DNA of 64,000 bases from Oscillospiraceae bacterium (GTDB lineage Bacteria > Bacillota > Clostridia > Oscillospirales > Oscillospiraceae). The position numbers and the translations under genes were made by a program. The notes below the pieces were generated by a model. The model had not been told where the DNA came from, did no database searches, and saw nothing but the letters and a program-made list of their open reading frames with translations. Every line of letters begins with the position of its first letter. The first letter of the stretch is position 1. The stretch lies in NCBI GenBank assembly GCA_017429835.1, contig JAFROD010000013.1, positions 1 to 64,000 on the forward strand, in the 5' to 3' direction. Below are positions 3,335 to 55,774 of the stretch, piece after piece.

Positions 3335-5293
3335 ATGGATTTCAAGCTACACGCGCCGTATCAGGCGACCGGCGATCAGCCGGAGGCGATCTCTAAACTG
3401 ACGGAGGGTCTGCGCAGCGGCATGAAGGAGCAGGTGCTGCTCGGCGTGACCGGCTCGGGCAAGACTTTCACGATGGCGTCCGTTATCGCAAACCTCAACC
3501 GCCCGACCCTCGTGCTGGCGCACAACAAGACCCTCGCCGCGCAGCTTTGCAGCGAGTTCCGGGAATTCTTCCCTGAAAACGCGGTCGAGTATTTCATATC
3601 TTACTACGACTACTATCAGCCCGAGGCGTATATCCCGCACACGGACACCTACATCGAAAAGGATTCGTCGATCAACGACGAGATCGAGCGTCTGCGCCAC
3701 AGCGCGACCTCCTCGCTCTTTGAGCGGCGGGACGTGATCGTGGTCGCGTCTGTGTCGTGCATCTACGGTCTGGGCGACCCGATCGACTATAAGAACATGG
3801 TCATCTCTCTGCGCACCGGCATGGAGAAAAACCGCGAGGAGCTGATGAAAAAGCTCGTCGAGATCCGCTACGAGCGCAACGATATCGAATTCACGCGCAA
3901 CACCTTCCGCGTCCGCGGCGACACGGTGGAGATCTATCCCGTCTACTGGTCGGGACGCGCGATCCGCGTCGAATTCTTCGGCGACGAGATCGACCGCATC
4001 TCCGAGATCAACGCCGTGACCGGCGTGCCGGAGCGCGTGGTCAATCACGTCGCGATCTACCCCGCTTCGCACTACGTCGCCTCCCGCGAAAAGCTGAACC
4101 GCGCAATCGTCGAGATCGAGGCGGAGATGGAGGAGCGCGAGGCGTGGTTCAAGGCGCACGACAAGCTGTTGGAGGCGCAGCGCATCCGCCAGCGCACGAT
4201 GTACGACATCGAAATGCTGCAGGAGATCGGCTTCTGCAGCGGCATCGAGAACTATTCGCGGGTCATTTCCGGCAGAGCGCCGGGCACGCCGCCGATGACG
4301 CTGCTGGACTACTTCCCGGACGATTTTATCCTCTTCGTGGACGAGAGCCACGTGACGCTCCCGCAGGTGCGCGCGATGTACCGCGGCGACCGCAGCCGCA
4401 AGGAGAGCCTCGTCGACTACGGCTTCCGTCTGCCGAGCGCGTTCGACAACCGCCCGCTGACCTTCCCGGAATTCGAGGGCAAGATCCGTCAGGCGGTCTA
4501 TGTCTCTGCGACGCCGGCGGAATTTGAGCGAGAGAGAGCCGCGCAGATTGCCGAGCAGGTGATCCGCCCGACCGGACTCCTGGATCCCGAGATCTTCGTC
4601 CGCCCGATCGAGGGGCAGATCGACGATCTGATCGGCGAGTGCAACAGCGTCGTTGCGCGCGGGGAGCGCGTCCTCGTGACGACGCTGACGAAGAAAATGG
4701 CGGAGGATCTGACGAGCTATCTGCAAAAGGCGGGTATCCGCGTGCGCTATATGCACTCCGACGTCGCCGCGCTGGAGCGAATGGAGATCCTGCGCGATCT
4801 GCGCATGGCAAAGTTCGACGTGCTGGTCGGCATCAACCTCCTGCGCGAGGGTCTCGACCTGCCGGAGGTCTCTCTGGTCGCCATTCTGGACGCGGACAAG
4901 GAGGGCTTCCTGCGCAGCGAGACGAGTCTCATTCAGACGATCGGACGCGCCGCGCGCAACGCCGGCGGGCGCGTGATCATGTACGCCGACGAGGTGACGG
5001 ACGCCATGTTCGCCGCGATCAACGAGACGAACCGCCGCCGCGGCATTCAGGACGCCTACAACAAGGCGCACGGCATCGTGCCGAAGACGATCATCAAGGA
5101 CGTGCGCGAGCTGCTGGAGATCACGCAGTCCGAGAGCGAAGCCGCCCGCGCCGACGGCGTGAAGATGACCCGCGCGGAGCGCGAACGCGAGATCGCGCGG
5201 CTGGAAAAGGAAATGAAGGCTGCGGCGCGGATGATGGAATACGAATACGCCGCCGTCCTGCGCGACCGTATCATCGAGCTGCGCGGGAAATAG
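3335..5293 (+). CDS. uvrB: Excinuclease ABC subunit B
   Basis: A 652-aa protein, full length for UvrB. It carries the damage from UvrA to UvrC in nucleotide excision repair. Visible motifs are Walker A GVTGSGKT (37-44), the aromatic beta-hairpin [18 protein letters not shown] (about 95-112), the DESH helicase motif, the conserved [12 protein letters not shown] and [14 protein letters not shown] blocks, and a C-terminal UVR coiled-coil with [18 protein letters not shown]. The ATG at 3335 follows CACGGAGAA; an earlier in-frame ATG at 3299 would lie inside the preceding gene. No uvrA or uvrC is seen next to it. Confidence 0.97.
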
Positions 5294-5319
5294 CCTCCCT
5301 CTTGAGGGAGCCAATACGA

Positions 5320-5346
5320 AAGCGTGCGCGAAGGCGCACGCTTTTT
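5320..5346 (+). terminator. Terminator after uvrB
   Basis: AAGCGTGCGC-GAAG-GCGCACGCTTTTT hairpin with a T run, directly after uvrB. Its T run abuts the -35 of the next promoter. Confidence 0.85.
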
Positions 5347-5372
5347 GCAACTTTTTTCCGTTCTCAGCCGTC
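5346..5372 (+). promoter_or_regulatory. Candidate ECF-type autoregulatory promoter
   Basis: TGCAAC (5346-5351), 17-nt spacer, CGTC (5369-5372) just before the ECF sigma gene. This is the typical -35 AAC / -10 CGTC layout of ECF-dependent promoters and suggests autoregulation (inference). Confidence 0.5.
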
Positions 5373-5412
5373 ATATAGACAGACGCGTCAAAACGAAAAC
5401 GGAGGTCGGCAA

Positions 5413-5889
5413 ATGGACAGGGAAGCATTTACGAAGATTTATGAAGCGCAGTTTCGGTTCGTCTGGAACGTGTGTCTGACGCTGCTGCGGAATCCGGCGG
5501 ACACGGAGGACGCGGTGCAGGAGACCTTCTGGCGTCTGCTGCGGCAGGAGGACGCGCCGGAAACGGCGGAGCATATCCGCGCGTGGCTGACCGTGACCGC
5601 GCGGAACGTGTGCCGCGACGAGCTGCGCCGCTTCCGGCGCAAAGAGCTTTCTCTGGACGCCGCGGCAGACGCGGCGGCCTTGCCGCCGGAGATCGATGAA
5701 ACGCTTGCCGCCGTCCGAAGCCTGCCGGAGAAATACCGGCTGCCTATCTATCTGTTCTATTATGAGGAGCTTTCCACCGCGCAGATCGCGGCGGCTTTGC
5801 AGCGGCGGGAATCCACCGTTCGGAGCGACCTGCGGCGCGGGCGGGAAAAGCTCAGGCAAATGCTGGGAGGAGATCGCAATGAGATTTGA
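5413..5889 (+). CDS. RNA polymerase sigma factor, ECF subfamily
   Basis: A 158-aa sigma-70 family factor with only regions 2 and 4. Region 2 (about residues 8-70) carries DTEDAVQETFWRLL and the WLTVTARNVCRDELRR stretch for -10 recognition. Region 4 (about 95-150) has LPEKYRLPIYLFYYEELSTAQIA and the HTH RRESTVRSDLRRGREKL. The ATG at 5413 follows GGAGGTCGGCAA. Its stop overlaps the next gene, a membrane protein, as is usual for an ECF/anti-sigma pair. The inducing signal is unknown. Confidence 0.93.
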   Translation: MDREAFTKIYEAQFRFVWNVCLTLLRNPADTEDAVQETFWRLLRQEDAPETAEHIRAWLTVTARNVCRDELRRFRRKELSLDAAADAAALPPEIDETLAAVRSLPEKYRLPIYLFYYEELSTAQIAAALQRRESTVRSDLRRGREKLRQMLGGDRNEI

Positions 5890-11242: not shown

Positions 11243-11475
11243 AAAAAATCACCCCTGAATGATTCAGGGGTGAGAATACTCCCACGGTTCCACCCTGCTT
11301 GCAGTTTTTGCAAACTGCCGCTCGTTCGCGCGCTAACGGGCGCACCCGTCTTCCCCTACTTCGTTCAGGGAAGCGGCTCGGAAGCGGTACGTGCCGGACG
11401 GGTGCAGGAGCTTTCACCGGCCGCTCCCTCTCTGTGCATCGTATCACGGTACGTTTCTTCGTCTTCGCCGATTTC
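11243..11475 (-). ncRNA. T-box riboswitch leader of thrS
   Basis: On the minus strand the leader has a stem I with AGAGAG and GGTGAAAG loop elements closed by GGAGC/GCTCC, a stem II CTTCCC..GGGGAAG, and a stem III GCAGTTT-GCAA-AAACTGC. The T-box AGGGTGGAACCGTGGG (complement of 11281-11296) follows, then the terminator TCACCCCTGAAT/ATTCAGGGGTGA with TTTTTT (11243-11273). Uncharged tRNA-Thr would favour the antiterminator and switch thrS on. An ACC triplet in TGCACCCG is a candidate specifier, though I could not fold the specifier loop with certainty. Confidence 0.9.
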
Positions 11476-14601: not shown

Positions 14602-16014
14602 TCAGGATACGGCGTAGAACGTCTGGCCGTCCACGATGACGGCGGCGAGGTCGGCGGGGTCGATCGACTGATTGAAGATCAGACCGAGGTGCGCCGTGCC
14701 GTCGTGCCAACCGGTGAAGTCCGAGGTCACCGCGTCGTGCGCCGAGCGCGGCGTATACGCGTGCCAGCCGTCGTCCAGCACGGTTTCCCGCGTCCCGTCG
14801 CGGAAGACCAGCGTCACCGTCGGCTGATATGCCTCATAGCGTTCTTCTCCCTGTACGCCGACGATATTCAGACCGATGGCGTCCATGCTGACGCTCTGCC
14901 ACGTGACGGCCTCCGTCGGCGTTCCCTCGGGCTCGGAGAGCGTGATCGCGTCGGGGAGCATGGTCTCCAGCTCCACGTCGAAGAGATAGTAGGGGTGTCC
15001 CGCCGTATCTCCTTCCTCAAACAGCTCGAGGATCTCGAAGCTGATCGAGTCGCCGACCGCGTTGACCGGCAGATTGCCCAGATGACCGATCAGATAGCGG
15101 CGCAGATTTTCCTCGCTGCCCACCAATCGCGCGTGCAGCAAGGTGCCGCTGCTCTGGTGCGTGAAGTTATAAACCGCGAACTCCGGCGTCACGTCCAGAT
15201 GCGCCATGCCGTAGTCCGTCAGCGCCTCCACGTCCAAAACGGCGTAGATCACGCTGGGGCTGACCGTCAGAGAGTGCAGCGTGAAGCGGTAGTCCTGCGT
15301 CTCCGCCGCCGTGGCGTAATGGTGTCGATCCGCAGCGAGCAGTTCTTCCTGCACGGCCTCGAGCGCGTTCAGCGGGAAGGACGCCAGCGCGGGCGCTTCT
15401 CCTTTACGCGAGAGGGAGAAAACGATCTCCGCGTCGTCCGCAAGCGGCTGATCGAGCGTTGCGCAAAGCTCCACCCGGTCCTTCCATGCGCCGATCTCCC
15501 GCGACGAGACGGCGGTCTCGTAGTCCGCAAACGTCAGGGCAAGACCGCTTTCGCGCAGCGGCGGCAGGCTTTCGTCCTTCGGCGAGACGTCCACGACAGC
15601 GCGGAGCCGTCCGCCGCCCGCCGACAGCTCGAGCAGGACGAGGTTGTAGTCGCCCGCCTCCGCCTTGACCCAGCTTGCGTAGCCGAAATCGGCGGGGATG
15701 ACCTCCGAGCTATCCGGCTCGTAGGTCTGCGCGTGGCTGTCGAGGACTTCCGCCGCAGGGCCGAATTCGTCCGTGAAGCGGAACGCGCCCAGCTTCCACG
15801 CGGCAAACACCGAGCCGCCGAGCAGCAAGACTGCCGCCAATACCGCCGCAGCGACGGTCAGGGGGCGGAATCGCATGCGTTTCGGCTGCGCTTTTTCCGC
15901 CTTCAGCCGGGAAAGCGTCAGCGCCCTGACCCGCTCGACACTCCCGTATTGCGGCGTGATCGGCTGCCCGACGTCTTCCATACCGTCCAAAAGATCAGAA
16001 ATATGGTAATTCAT
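14602..16014 (-). CDS. DUF4179-type membrane protein, probable anti-sigma factor
   Basis: A 470-aa protein. A cytoplasmic N-terminus of about 48 residues begins MNYHISDLLDGMEDV, followed by one membrane segment (LTVAAAVLAAVLLLGGSVFAAW) and a long beta-rich extracytoplasmic part. This is the layout of DUF4179-containing proteins encoded after ECF sigma genes. It lies 12 bp downstream of the ECF gene with its own AGGAGG. It differs from the first anti-sigma-like protein in this window both in sequence and in its outer domain, so the two systems sense different signals (inference). Confidence 0.75.
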   Translation of the reverse strand: MNYHISDLLDGMEDVGQPITPQYGSVERVRALTLSRLKAEKAQPKRMRFRPLTVAAAVLAAVLLLGGSVFAAWKLGAFRFTDEFGPAAEVLDSHAQTYEPDSSEVIPADFGYASWVKAEAGDYNLVLLELSAGGGRLRAVVDVSPKDESLPPLRESGLALTFADYETAVSSREIGAWKDRVELCATLDQPLADDAEIVFSLSRKGEAPALASFPLNALEAVQEELLAADRHHYATAAETQDYRFTLHSLTVSPSVIYAVLDVEALTDYGMAHLDVTPEFAVYNFTHQSSGTLLHARLVGSEENLRRYLIGHLGNLPVNAVGDSISFEILELFEEGDTAGHPYYLFDVELETMLPDAITLSEPEGTPTEAVTWQSVSMDAIGLNIVGVQGEERYEAYQPTVTLVFRDGTRETVLDDGWHAYTPRSAHDAVTSDFTGWHDGTAHLGLIFNQSIDPADLAAVIVDGQTFYAVS

Positions 16015-16807: not shown

Positions 16808-16881
16808 AGCGGGTTTGTGTAATGGTAGCACACCGGACTCTGACTCCGTTTGTGAGGGTTCGAATCCTTCACCCGCTGCCA
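16808..16881 (+). tRNA. tRNA-Gln (anticodon CUG)
   Basis: The 7-bp acceptor AGCGGGT/ACCCGCT is followed by discriminator G and encoded CCA. The D arm is GTGTAATGGTAGCAC. The anticodon loop CTCTGAC gives CUG. The T arm is GAGGG-TTCGAAT-CCTTC. The gene is the integration target of the prophage: its last about 24 bases are supplied by the phage copy of the core, so it remains intact. Confidence 0.93.
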
Positions 16882-36151: not shown

Positions 36152-36883
36152 ATGCTTCGCCCGGAATACCTCGAAGAATTACCTGACGAAATCCTTGAAC
36201 TGTTCTCGGAGGCGGAGCAGGAGATCCTTGCGGATATGGCGCGGCGGATCTCTACTTATGATTTTTGGATTCCGGCCGCCGATCATCAGAACAGGGTGCT
36301 CCGCGAAGCCGGGATTATGCAGGAGGATATCCTCACCGTCCTGTCGGCGACGACACGGAAATCGGAGGAAGAACTGCGCGACCTGATGCAGCGTGCCGGC
36401 AGTATGGCGCTGCACAACGACGAGAGCATCTATTCCGCAGGCGGCTTTCACGTGCCTTCGATCAAAGACAGCCTGCCGCTGCGGAACGTGCTGAACGCCG
36501 GATATCAAGCGACGGCGACCGAGATGGCGAACCTGTGCAGAACGACGGCGCGGACGGCGACGAAACAGTTTGAGGACGCGCTCGATCGGGCGTGGCTCAA
36601 CGTGTCAAGCGGTGCCTTCGACGCAGACGCCGCCATTCGATCAGCCGTCAAGGAACTGTCGGAAAAGGGAATTCAGTCGATTACATATCCTTCCGGCAGA
36701 ACGGACAGCATCGAAACCGCAGTTCGGCGTGCCGTCGTGACCGGCGTCAATCAGACTTCTGCGCAATTATCGCTTGAACTTATGGACGAGCTTGGCTGTG
36801 ATCTTGTCGAAGTGACGGCACATTCGGACGCCCGGCCGGAACACGCGCTGTGGCAGGGTAAAATTTATCGAAGAAAAAAATAA
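36152..36883 (+). CDS. Phage minor capsid protein, N-terminal part (interrupted)
   Basis: A 243-aa product similar to Phage_min_cap2/Mu-F-like minor head proteins: ELFSEAEQEILADMARRI, DESIYSAGGFHVPSIKDSLPLRNVLNAGYQAT, and GVNQTSAQLSLELMDELGCDLVEVTAHSDARPEHALWQGKIY. In relatives the next residues are a Ser-rich turn and YPDF; here the frame ends RRKK-stop. The missing part resumes at 38434 after a roughly 1.56-kb insertion. The truncated protein loses its conserved GWNCRH segment. It is probably non-functional unless the insert is removed or the halves assemble. Confidence 0.85.
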   Translation: MLRPEYLEELPDEILELFSEAEQEILADMARRISTYDFWIPAADHQNRVLREAGIMQEDILTVLSATTRKSEEELRDLMQRAGSMALHNDESIYSAGGFHVPSIKDSLPLRNVLNAGYQATATEMANLCRTTARTATKQFEDALDRAWLNVSSGAFDADAAIRSAVKELSEKGIQSITYPSGRTDSIETAVRRAVVTGVNQTSAQLSLELMDELGCDLVEVTAHSDARPEHALWQGKIYRRKK

Positions 36884-36891
36884 AAAACCTC

Positions 36892-36940
36892 TTGACTTTT
36901 GTGTCACCAATAGTATAATAAGAATTACGGTGACACAAAA
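36892..36940 (+). promoter_or_regulatory. Promoter and operator of the inserted cassette
   Basis: TTGACT (36892-36897), 16-nt spacer, TATAAT (36914-36919). A perfect 12-bp inverted repeat, TTTTGTGTCACC (36897-36908) and GGTGACACAAAA (36929-36940), flanks the -10, ideally placed for repression by the RHH protein encoded just downstream. Confidence 0.8.
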
Positions 36941-36953
36941 GTGAGGTGAGTAA

Positions 36954-37124
36954 ATGTCTCCGAAAACTGGAAGACCGACTTCTGAACCTAAAACACATGA
37001 GACACGCATTCGAATGTCAGACGAAGACGTTCGCATTTTGGAAATCTGTTGTAAAAAAACTGGTATGACAAAAGCGGAGGTAATTCGCAAAGGCATCCGC
37101 GAGGTTTATGAGAAGGTCAAATAA
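36954..37124 (+). CDS. Ribbon-helix-helix (CopG/Arc-like) repressor of the inserted cassette
   Basis: A 56-aa protein: MSPKTGRPTSEPKTHETRIRM, then SDEDVRILEICCKKTGMTKAEVIRKGIREVYEKVK. THETRIRMS is the DNA-binding beta strand; the two helices follow. RBS GTGAGGTGAG precedes the ATG. It is very probably an autorepressor acting at the inverted repeat around its promoter. It is too short for a standard length cut-off and easily missed. Confidence 0.82.
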   Translation: MSPKTGRPTSEPKTHETRIRMSDEDVRILEICCKKTGMTKAEVIRKGIREVYEKVK

Positions 37125-37239
37125 AAAAGAAACAGCCCGTGACCCTCGATAAGTAACGGACTGTTTCCATTGCACCAAACCAAGGAGGCTTGGTAAATAT
37201 ATTATACCACGCCTTCCTTGAAAACTCAAGGAGGTTTTT

Positions 37240-37473
37240 GTGAATAATTCAACAGATACTGAATTCGAATTGATAGATACTATTGAAACGGCTTGCGTGG
37301 AATTGGACTGTGCTATGGCGGTGCTCAGCCAAGTTCTCGAGGACTATTTTTCTGACGATGAAACAGAAAAACTCTTGAGCTTCTATGCCGATAACATTTC
37401 CAAACTGCTCAATGCAGTTGATTCTTTGCTGCGTGGAACAAAACACATGTTGCAGGACAGAATCCCAATATAA
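37240..37473 (+). CDS. Small acidic helical protein of the inserted cassette
   Basis: A 77-aa acidic protein (MNNSTDTEFELIDTIETACVELDCAMAVLSQVLEDYF...) with GTG start 5 nt after AAGGAGG. It is all-helical by pattern, with no recognised family. The preceding 115 bp hold a weak hairpin (AAACAG..CTGTTT) and a CCAAG-GAGG-CTTGG stem. It lies between the repressor and the endonuclease. Confidence 0.65.
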   Translation: MNNSTDTEFELIDTIETACVELDCAMAVLSQVLEDYFSDDETEKLLSFYADNISKLLNAVDSLLRGTKHMLQDRIPI

Positions 37474-37487
37474 GAGGGGTAAGGCAA

Positions 37488-38378
37488 ATGGGAGCTGTTA
37501 TTGATTTATCAGGGCAGGTTTTCGGAAAGCTTACTGTAGTTTCTTACGCAGGTAGCAGAAACGGCAATGGTGCGCTTTGGCTGTGCAAGTGTGACTGTGG
37601 CAACATCACAATAAAAAGTGGCAAAATGCTGAGGCACCACGGGAAATATGCTTCCTGCGGCTGCTATGACGGTAGACGCAAACGGCTGGTCGATCTGACA
37701 GGTCAACGGTTTGGCAATCTAACCGTTCTTCATAGAGTGGAGAACACCAAAGACAGCAAACCACAATGGTTGTGTCAATGCGATTGTGGTAATCAGAAGA
37801 TCGTTCAAAGCAAGCATCTGAAGAGCGGCGACGTAAAATCTTGCGGTTGCGGCAAAGGCATTAAGCGAGTTGGAAAAAGGACACAATTCACTCCTGCTTG
37901 CAGACCAATAATTGAGCTACATAGTCATAGGAACAGATTGTATAACATTTGGAGCGGTATGCATTATCGTTGTGAAAAACCAAATGCAAGCAGTTATGAA
38001 TTCTATGGCGGGCGCGGTATTTGCGTTTGTGCAGAATGGTCTGGTAAAAAAGGATTTGATCATTTTCGAGAATGGGCAGTTGCTCATGGTTATGCCGACG
38101 ATCTTGAAATTGATAGAATCGACAACGATCTTGGCTATGAGCCTGCCAATTGTAGGTGGGTCACGCATCAGGAAAACGCTTTTAACCGAAGAGCCAGAGG
38201 ACGATCAGGGATAGTTGGCGTGAGTTTCAGAAAAGACCGACCATCAGATATAGGCGCATGGCGAGCGTGTATTACAGTTGAAGGCAAATCAAAATACATT
38301 GGCACCTTCAAAACGAAAGAAGAAGCCATAGCGGCACGCAAGAAAGCAGAAATGGAGATTGGTCTCCGAAAAGAATAA
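37488..38378 (+). CDS. HNH homing endonuclease with N-terminal zinc-finger repeats and C-terminal AP2 domain
   Basis: A 296-aa protein. Two N-terminal repeats of the type DLSGQVFGKLTVV...WLCKCDCG...CGC (about 5-58 and 67-125) are Cys-rich DNA-binding modules. The HNH centre is in NIWSGMHYRCEKP...YGGRGICVCAEW...LEIDRIDNDLGYEPANCRWVTHQENAFNRR (about 150-240). A C-terminal AP2-like DNA-binding domain has GIVGVSFRKDRPSDIGAWRACI...YIGTFKTKEEA. The cassette sits in a conserved head gene, the usual lifestyle of homing nucleases. Confidence 0.88.
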   Translation: MGAVIDLSGQVFGKLTVVSYAGSRNGNGALWLCKCDCGNITIKSGKMLRHHGKYASCGCYDGRRKRLVDLTGQRFGNLTVLHRVENTKDSKPQWLCQCDCGNQKIVQSKHLKSGDVKSCGCGKGIKRVGKRTQFTPACRPIIELHSHRNRLYNIWSGMHYRCEKPNASSYEFYGGRGICVCAEWSGKKGFDHFREWAVAHGYADDLEIDRIDNDLGYEPANCRWVTHQENAFNRRARGRSGIVGVSFRKDRPSDIGAWRACITVEGKSKYIGTFKTKEEAIAARKKAEMEIGLRKE

Positions 38379-38433
38379 CGATGCAGACAGCAGGGCAGAT
38401 AGCCTTGCTGTCTTGCTATAGGTGGTGATCATA

Positions 38434-38637
38434 ATGAGTTCCAATTCACAAGATTATTCGGACTATCCGGATTTTGAATCCTCGACAGGATACGGCACCG
38501 GAGAAGGTCTTTGCGGTTGGAACTGTACAGGGCCGGCATAGTTTCGGTCCTTATACATTTCTGGTTCGCCTCGCGTATGGTCTGATGAAGAACTAGCGAA
38601 GCTCGACGAGCCGACGGTCGAATATGACGGCAAGAAG
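38434..38637 (+). pseudogene. Middle part of the minor capsid gene with two micro-indels
   Basis: From the ATG at 38434 the frame reads SSNSQDYSDYPDFESSTGYG...LCGWNC, the direct continuation of the N-terminal part ending GKIY. After the WNC codons a seven-base excess (about 38525-38531) shifts the frame into a TAG at 38539. In the shifted frame the expected RHSFGPY follows. A two-base excess near 38557 restores the original frame (GSPRVWSDEELAKLDEP). Net +9 restores frame but leaves the stop. Confidence 0.7.
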
Positions 38638-39285
38638 ATGACCGAATACGAAGCCCGCCAGAGGATGCGCTACAACGAGCGGCAGATCCGGCGCTGGAAG
38701 CGGGAAGAGGTCGCTTTGAACGCGGCGGGCCTGGACAGCAGCGAGGCAGCCGCAAAGGTCAGCGCATGGCAGGCGCGGCAGCGTGACTTCGTCAATCAGA
38801 CCGGCTTCAAGCGGGACTATGCGAGAGAGGCTATACCGAAAAACGCAGTTGCGATTTCCGAAAAATCTGCTACAATAGAAGCGATAGAGACAGAAGGTGG
38901 AATCGCTGTGCACGAAATTGGCAGGATTGATATCACGAAATATCAATGCGTTTCGGATATTATTTCTACAGATGAGGTAATAATAACGGATGAGCGTATG
39001 CAGCATATTCGCGAAAATCATCCGGGCGCTTATGAAAGAATTGCGCCATATTTACAAATTGCTTTAGGTGAACCAGATTATATTCTGGAAGATAAGCATC
39101 CCGATTCAGCATTAGTGCTGAAACTCGTAGAAGAAAATGATTTGCGTATTCAAATCGTCTTGCGCCTTCATACTTCGCAAGACAAAGAAGGCTATAAGAA
39201 CTCTATTATTTCTGCATGGGATATTAGTCAAGAACGCTGGAGAAACTATATTAAAAACAAAAAAGTGCTTTACAAACGTGAATAA
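38638..39285 (+). CDS. Minor capsid protein C-terminal part with PBECR-like nuclease domain
   Basis: A 215-aa open frame from the first usable ATG. Residues 1-65 finish the minor capsid protein (MTEYEARQRMRYNERQIRRWKREE). Residues about 105-215 (ITDERMQHIRENHPGAYERIAPYLQIALGEPDYILED...LRIQIVLRLHTS...NSIISAWDISQERWRNYIKNKKVLYK) match phage Barnase-EndoU-ColicinE5/D-RelE-like nuclease domains fused to phage head proteins. It may cleave host RNA on injection. With no RBS before this ATG, expression is doubtful. Confidence 0.72.
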   Translation: MTEYEARQRMRYNERQIRRWKREEVALNAAGLDSSEAAAKVSAWQARQRDFVNQTGFKRDYAREAIPKNAVAISEKSATIEAIETEGGIAVHEIGRIDITKYQCVSDIISTDEVIITDERMQHIRENHPGAYERIAPYLQIALGEPDYILEDKHPDSALVLKLVEENDLRIQIVLRLHTSQDKEGYKNSIISAWDISQERWRNYIKNKKVLYKRE

Positions 39286-39302: not shown

Positions 39303-39494
39303 TAGGGTAGAGAGGACTTTGAGGTGGTAAATTTCGTTGCGACCACACGCCGATGGCATGACAAGGGGAAACCCTGAGAGATGCGGGAGATGCGACGCCC
39401 GCCAAAGTCCAAGACCAATGGGGCCATAGAAATATGGCCCCGCCGGTCTACTTAGAGAAACCACCAATCCGGTTTTGCGGATCGGTGGTTTTTC
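39303..39494 (+). ncRNA. Candidate structured non-coding RNA of unknown family
   Basis: A 190-nt gene-free stretch with its own promoter and terminator. Domain A is closed by a perfect 8-bp stem, GGACTTTG (39314-39321) with CAAAGTCC (39403-39410). Inside are GTGGT/ACCAC (39324-39346), GCAT/ATGC (39356, 39381) and an AGGG-GAAA-CCCT GNRA hairpin (39364-39375). Domain B is GACC..GGGGCCAT-AGAAAT-ATGGCCCC..GGTC (39413-39448). It ends in a terminator AAACCACC..GGTGGTTTTT (39458-39493). It does not match any riboswitch, ribozyme or intron core that I can recall. Confidence 0.6.
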
Positions 39495-55454: not shown

Positions 55455-55663
55455 GTTGATCTTCCTCTCTGAATTATGTAAGCAGACCGCGGGTTGGCGG
55501 TCTGCATTGTTGTTTTTTGGGAATTCACACATTTGCCCCCGGCGCCCCTGTGAAGCGGGAAGTCATCAAGCTGCGATTTGCTGATCGCAACACGGGAATC
55601 GCACCCCTCCGCCGTTCTGACCGAGCTGCCCAATGCTGTGACGCGTTCAAGACAGGAGTATCA

Positions 55664-55774
55664 TTATTTCTTCTGACTGTCATCGCCGTCCCGGTAGCAA
55701 TCCGGCACCTGCAGCAGGTTCTTCCGCTCGCTTCCGTTTGGAAGGTCGTCGCGCACCCGACTGTCGTGGCTCAC
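55664..55774 (-). CDS. Possible 36-aa protein of the second element
   Basis: GTG start with GACGAGG nine bases upstream encodes SHDSRVRDDLPNGSERKNLLQVPDCYRDGDDSQKK. The composition is protein-like and similar short products occur in clostridial elements as far as I recall. The surrounding stretch 55455-55899 otherwise holds no supported gene. Confidence 0.35.
   Translation of the reverse strand: MSHDSRVRDDLPNGSERKNLLQVPDCYRDGDDSQKK

Follow-up and report, generated by a model that had tools for sequence, protein, structure and literature searches.

A probable homing-endonuclease cassette with predicted P22 immI-like control in the minor capsid gene of an Oscillospiraceae prophage

Introduction

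Homing endonucleases have to be restrained, and most of what is known about their regulation comes from T4-like phages. The copG-RNAII-repB arrangement lies on plasmid pMV158/pLS1. In Salmonella phage P22, the ant moron has been described together with arc and sar (PMC2629481). In Aeromonas phage Aeh1, the homing endonuclease gene mobE splits nrdA, the split enzyme is functional, and control of mobE is layered (PMC2988022). CopG-RepB is named in PMC8264293, where antisense RNA II appears in the reference list, and MuF toxins are described in PMC5576092 as phage head proteins whose C-terminal toxin-like domain varies. Here, we analyze a 64,000-nucleotide stretch of contig JAFROD010000013.1 from an Oscillospiraceae bacterium (hereafter, the window), in which the minor capsid gene MCP2 of a prophage is split by an insert. 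The insert is probably a free-standing HNH/AP2 homing-endonuclease cassette, with the nuclease as the third gene of a P22 immI-like module that would be controlled by a repressor and a predicted antisense RNA.

Results

Our comparison with related loci (designated L with a number) reveals that MCP2 of the window has been interrupted. In the prophage head module, which runs from portal through MCP2 to scaffold- and major-capsid-like open reading frames (ORFs), the closest relative found, L002, has an unsplit MCP2 with 91% identity to the window N-half over 239 residues, and its frame continues past the window's stop point as GRIY-SRSGKHPNYPPF. The initial annotation of this DNA had the frame breaking after GKIY and resuming 1.56 kb on, placed the insert at 36870-38434, and called for alignment to uninterrupted relatives. 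That alignment confirms the interruption and, as L002 reads straight through, fixes the junction at 36868/38440. It also corrects the limits, and the resumed frame soon ends at a stop codon. In an AlphaFold model of the intact L002 protein (mean pLDDT 75), the split point falls where a short strand (238-240) gives way to a coil, within a well-predicted region. The parts of the divided gene are as follows.

36152-36883, + strand: N-half of MCP2 (Pfam Phage_min_cap2, PF06152, positions 1-245 of 366, E 9e-80), with C-terminus GKIY-RRKK-stop
36869-38439, + strand: insert relative to uninterrupted relatives, 1,571 bp; gap in the profile census, homology ending at 36868 and restarting at 38440
38420-38436, + strand: Shine-Dalgarno (SD) sequence (AGGTGGTG) and ATG (38434) reopening the MCP2 3' half, read from the sequence
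38434-38541, + strand: ORF of the 3' MCP2 fragment (YPDF...GLCGWNC), closed by TAG at 38539-38541
38638-39285, + strand: remaining MCP2 C-part with a PBECR2 nuclease-like domain (Pfam match)

The TAG arises because of two small out-of-frame insertions; beyond it, MCP2 homology persists in other frames and in the last ORF listed.

In the insert, a ribbon-helix-helix (RHH) repressor, a small acidic protein, and an HNH/AP2 endonuclease had all been proposed, and all three are found. A perfect inverted repeat encloses the cassette promoter, as had also been proposed, but its length is 14 bp rather than 12.

36892-36919, + strand: cassette promoter TTGACT-N16-TATAAT, 11/12 consensus matches
36895-36908, + strand: left arm of the predicted operator, a perfect 14-bp inverted repeat read from the sequence, at a like position in relatives
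36929-36942, + strand: right arm of the same perfect 14-bp repeat, partner of 36895-36908
36954-37124, + strand: RHH repressor (Arc/CopG type), 56 aa (phrog_876 transcriptional repressor, E 2.5e-16)
37240-37473, + strand: small acidic protein, 77 aa, GTG start; an ORF to which Pfam and PHROG scans assigned no family
37488-38378, + strand: HNH/AP2 endonuclease, 296 aa (phrog_374 HNH endonuclease, E 1.7e-98; AP2 match weak)

For the repressor, the Pfam RHH_1 match (E 0.0019) is under the curated cut-off, and comparison with solved structures gave designed repeat proteins only, as weak matches. Among 40 distinct RHH relatives (identical copies removed), there are 31 in which the -10 lies between the arms of the best inverted repeat.

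Nucleases recur at this site. For a census of MCP2, N- and C-half profiles built from 16 intact proteins were scanned over the fetched loci, and identical copies were dropped before counting; the structure alignment A5 likewise comprised 16 intact proteins. The census holds 206 intact copies, 15 split rows (14 distinct, as L340 and L452 share their contig with L008), and, counted apart, 10 copies without a C-half in reach. A nuclease lies at the split site in 7 of the 14 distinct split copies. Six are HNH nucleases, in the window (HNH/AP2), L419, L170, L422, L443 (read from sequence, not profile-scanned), and L029 (on the opposite strand), and the split in L008 holds a GIY-YIG nuclease with NUMOD motifs. 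The N-half of L008 is 90% identical to that of an uninterrupted relative, L451 (the contig of intact L006). An MCP2 match was present in 26 of 300 genomes in a family-level sample, several of them split at the same place, and in 49 of 394 genomes in an order-level sample, where most long matches were unbroken. The insertion site in MCP2 is used by several unrelated phages.

The trio of RHH, small ORF, and HNH gene is likewise found elsewhere, in keeping with a search that had been proposed for it. HNH genes occupy the third-gene place in seven cassettes. Two of these lie in MCP2 (the window and L419, another phage). The L022 cassette sits between tail-type genes, those of L033 and L072 adjoin a tail assembly chaperone (the L072 HNH was assigned from a search match), and those of L050 and L085 precede a portal gene and a terminase small subunit gene, respectively. 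Approached from the nuclease, a same-strand RHH relative was present in 5 of 80 HNH loci (4 distinct). By the gene content of these loci, the usual cargo of an RHH cassette is an antirepressor rather than a nuclease: in Pfam scans, which covered the genes cited here, antirepressor-type genes (Bro-N/ANT, AntA, ORF6N, and Rha) stand behind RHH in ten tested relatives, with the Bro-N match of L118 under the curated cut-off. In L011, L012, L017, and L023, loci that look chromosomal, the gene behind the RHH-antisense module is DUF6809 (PF20648), and no paper naming DUF6809 was found among the open-licence PMC papers searched. At the MCP2 site itself, L170 and L422 have a divergent RHH_3 gene adjoining HNH in place of the cassette-type RHH, and an ORF of L443 reads identical to the L422 gene, which indicates that a repressor accompanies the nuclease at this site by two different designs. 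The divergent genes lie at 3826-4090 (L170), 5238-5503 (L422), and 437-702 (L443), and the promoter region shared by RHH_3 and HNH in L170 has several TTAATTAA repeats.

A tract of foreign sequence adjoins the 3' end of the insert.

38440-38589, + strand: imported (co-converted) tract, 86/141 bases identical to L002 versus 187/219 just downstream

This contrast in identity is significant (p 3e-7). Against a same-genus fragment, the window matches at 16/30 bases in the first stretch and then at 195/220, while L002 matches the fragment at 29/30 in that first stretch. A second phage group has a comparable pattern: relatives with an intact MCP2, which match the L419 N-half at 79-87% identity, have a clearly dissimilar segment at the 3' flank, and the split copies L419, L422, and L443 have the canonical YPDF...GWNCRHHF segment before returning to group-shared sequence. 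The flank tracts in the window and in the L419 group look like gene conversion that came along with the cassette. With a recurring trio, an empty site in relatives, and an imported 3' tract, the earlier description of a self-regulated mobile cassette in the minor capsid gene holds in outline; what it overlooked is a predicted antisense layer. The cassette is apparently mobile.

MCP2 carries a second break about 90 bp downstream of the insert (window 38527-38541). In L008, L029, L205, and L287 (the last without its N-half on the contig), differing small insertions break the gene at or near the same GW-NC-RHS motif, at most a few codons away, and in L205 and L287 a stop codon stands between two copies of one codon. 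This break occurs in 4 of 14 split versus 0 of 206 intact MCP2 copies (hypergeometric ~1e-5, relatedness ignored); L170, L419, L422, and L443 do not have it. It is possible that the second lesion is a cut-site scar, acquired immunity to the nuclease, or the loss of an unneeded C-half. When viral contigs were scanned for a W-stop-W DNA pattern, the matches were four contigs, those of L008 and L205 and two unrelated ones, so few that this form of the lesion appears to be rare. The window lesion bears on whether the prophage is simply dead, the insertion having killed MCP2 and left a decaying C-half and nothing functional. The stop created by the two insertions and the severing of the toxin-like domain from the head-protein half make this a possibility to be taken seriously, if a tentative one. 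Yet the cassette ORFs and both promoters are all intact, the breaks in split copies cluster at one motif rather than falling at random, and the C-halves are unbroken in L170, L419, L422, L443, and L162, which hold a nuclease cassette or its place.

A different explanation is that the cassette is a moron settled between genes that were already separate, with the split occurring earlier and no homing involved. The split copies that contain no nuclease are varied: the halves lie 81-97 nt apart in L162 and L205, are overlapping ORFs in L302, and are separated by 529 nt with no clear gene in L300, by another gene in L109, and by a toxin-type rearrangement in L127 and L301. The initial annotation had held that the same intergenic genes between two naturally separate head genes in relatives would count against an insertion. 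This is borne out in part, as in L302, L162, L300, L109, and L301 MCP2 is already two genes, though with other things, or nothing, separating them; the first four, together with the RHH modules with antirepressors that sit between many late genes, are what an early split would predict. On the other hand, the closest relative is intact. Furthermore, L008 was split by a nuclease even though its N-half is nearly that of an uninterrupted relative, and in the window the imported tract adjoins the insert. We consider the early split unlikely. Orphan toxin modules, considered as a cause of splitting, fit L127 and L301 but not the window. L205 retains what looks like an RHH gene tail corresponding to the gene in L170, and by this remnant cassettes also seem to be lost.

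Several additional features of MCP2 loci were recorded. The 3' MCP2 halves of L008, L170, and L205 have a good SD and no in-frame ATG, GTG, or TTG; ATA or ACG stands at the start place. Orphan MCP2 C-parts lie beside host-like genes (mnmG-like, tRNA, rRNA end) in L303, L304, L306, and L307. A Skipping-rope RNA (RF02924) is located 3' of the MCP2/PBECR2 toxin-like gene of the window (39314-39410, + strand) and also in L127 (4766-4858), between MCP2 modules.

Between the RHH gene and the 77-aa ORF lies what looks like a convergent antisense RNA gene, predicted from its promoter and folding.

37125-37194, - strand: predicted sar-like antisense RNA, two stem-loops, with a T-run from the RHH C-terminal codons
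37201-37229, - strand: antisense promoter TTGAGT-N17-TATAAT with TG before the -10, 10/12 matches, position conserved in relatives
37213-37234, + strand: SD-sequestering hairpin followed by TTTTT, a possible attenuator from folding; scores as a terminator on the + strand

Across the 40 RHH loci, a reverse-strand sigma-70-type promoter follows the RHH stop, and in most loci its -10 is 60-82 nt beyond that codon. Its mean score is 9.8, versus 7.9 for the forward strand, and it beats at least 95 of 100 shuffles in 28 loci. The modelled antisense RNA is 52-86 nt long; two stem-loops form in 36 of the 40 loci versus 771 of 4000 shuffles, and fold stability reaches z < -2 in 35. These figures come from folding each sequence singly against shuffles, which replaced RNAalifold on alignments; the alignments A2, A3, and A4 comprised 36, 34, and 18 RHH-locus sequences, and a pair-type table fitted to each antisense fold is descriptive only. 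P22 was run through the same script as a control, and its sar, which occupies 15021-15090 next to the arc stop, passed the fold test; its -10 is at +75, compared with +77 in the window, and Rfam detected sar (RF00262) in P22. With HNH as gene 3 in seven cassettes, the fold found in 36 of 40 loci suggests that an immI-type module drives a homing endonuclease.

The leader could translate such an RNA into control. The 5' strand of the SD hairpin has an alternative partner farther upstream, in a strand to which the antisense RNA would bind. In a thermodynamic model, not a measurement, binding of the antisense RNA lowered SD openness in 23 of 32 loci and raised it in 1, counting changes above 0.1, and with shuffled leaders SD opening fell in 46 of 320 cases; the 32 loci were those of the 40 with a promoter score of at least 9 and a findable next start. 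Because the hairpin precedes TTTTT, termination of the transcript is possible as an alternative to SD closure. This same hairpin permits an argument that the stretch behind RHH is only an mRNA leader, with an attenuator and SD hairpins, and that the reverse promoter and hairpins are by-products with no antisense RNA: the hairpin and TTTTT score as a terminator, and attenuation alone could conserve structure. That account seems improbable to us. The reverse -35 and -10 hold their position and spacing among the RHH loci while the surrounding stems vary, the Lys codons at the RHH C-terminus yield a T-run on the reverse strand just after the hairpin, and the geometry is within a few bases of P22 sar.

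Finally, the insertion is precise and within coding sequence, and the junction had been read as T before and G at the end, but a group I intron with an internal endonuclease gene that is spliced to restore MCP2 is highly improbable and splicing is rejected, given that Rfam found no intron family or conserved core in the insert (neither at the gathering threshold nor in nine weak matches at E <=10), the in-frame cut 36868/38440 ends in T rather than G, an SD and ATG restart the 3' half, the MCP2 C-half is out of frame further on, and most of the ~250 non-coding bases of the insert are occupied by promoters and hairpins.

Other RNAs of the window, away from the insert, are a T-box leader (11263-11474, - strand), a pemK RNA (55590-55667, - strand), and a tRNA-Gln (16808-16881, + strand).

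Discussion

From the insertion, its anatomy and recurrence, the imported flank, and the conserved antisense promoter and fold, we infer antisense transcription and its effect, repression, cleavage, and homing. Entry of the cassette into MCP2 would have split one gene into two, with the 3' half restarting from its own SD and ATG. The RHH protein would act at the 14-bp operator pair to repress the promoter of its own gene, and the convergent ~70-nt RNA would pair with the leader that separates RHH from gene 2. Such pairing would free the anti-SD strand, so that the SD hairpin closes or the transcript terminates, reducing both the gene 2 product and the nuclease. If little repressor and antisense RNA is present, as might occur upon entry into a naive cell or after induction, the nuclease would be made and could nick or cut the uninterrupted MCP2 of a co-infecting phage, whereupon repair would copy in the cassette along with about 150 bp of 3' flank.

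A number of observations weigh against this interpretation. Half of the split MCP2 genes hold no nuclease. In the window, the frame of the 3' half is broken, and the cassette may therefore be a fossil in a dead phage. The sign of conversion at the 5' flank is weak (p 0.04), and a donor of the imported tract was not found. As for the control module, BLASTP found no homology of the window RHH to Arc, and Rfam gave no sar match (RF00262) in the window. The fold test was failed by 4 of the 40 RHH loci (L115, L117, L207, and L033), and L121 has two stem-loops of ordinary stability (z 0.3). RNAalifold on MAFFT alignments found zero pairs on either the + or the antisense strand, because the stems slide between loci.

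A broader proposal, which we advance only tentatively, is that RHH and antisense RNA form a portable control chassis, shared by phages and chromosomes of the Clostridia type, in which the regulated gene is swapped (antirepressor, DUF6809, or homing endonuclease). The trans-acting regulators of a resident prophage would then silence the nuclease of an incoming like phage, such that homing would take place only upon non-immune entry; a homing gene would in this way come under superinfection immunity, and the GW-NC-RHS lesion would be a cut-site scar or a mark of immunity.

Our interpretation predicts a family of sar-like antisense RNAs that has no Rfam 15 match in the window and whose fold is present in those 36 loci. 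It also points to MCP2, a capsid gene, as a repeated target in which nucleases from different families enter at a single codon boundary. Our literature search was restricted to open-licence PMC papers and found neither a homing endonuclease under arc/sar-type control nor sar-like RNAs in Clostridia.

Each of the closest described systems shares some of these elements. The MuF or Phage_min_cap2 polymorphic toxins represent the type of host gene found in the window, with its PBECR2 domain, although here the toxin-like domain is severed from the head-protein half. Plasmid pMV158/pLS1 likewise combines an RHH autorepressor with an antisense RNA that controls the gene behind; unlike the window, it serves plasmid copy-number control with a replication initiator as the target, and it is not a moron and carries no nuclease. 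In mobE of Aeh1, and in mobA of T4 gene 60/39, a free-standing HNH homing endonuclease likewise turned one gene into two ORFs. Control of mobE is layered and includes a hairpin over the ribosome-binding site, whereas the available part of PMC2988022 describes no repressor gene or antisense RNA. Moreover, the target of mobE is an enzyme, and that of the window is a capsid protein with a broken 3' half. The P22 arc-sar-ant system is a further parallel. Like the window, it has a small RHH repressor with an operator over its own promoter, a ~70-nt antisense RNA of two stem-loops that starts at the repressor stop (predicted in the window), and the regulated gene next, the whole forming a moron among late genes (PMC2629481). 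Unlike P22, the third gene of the window is an HNH endonuclease behind a 77-aa ORF rather than an antirepressor, the antisense promoter precedes the next gene instead of lying inside it, there is no Mnt, and the host gene is split. The window module would work like P22 immI, but with no homology to Arc or sar it is not classed as a member. A homing gene seems here to have adopted the control scheme of a lysogeny module.

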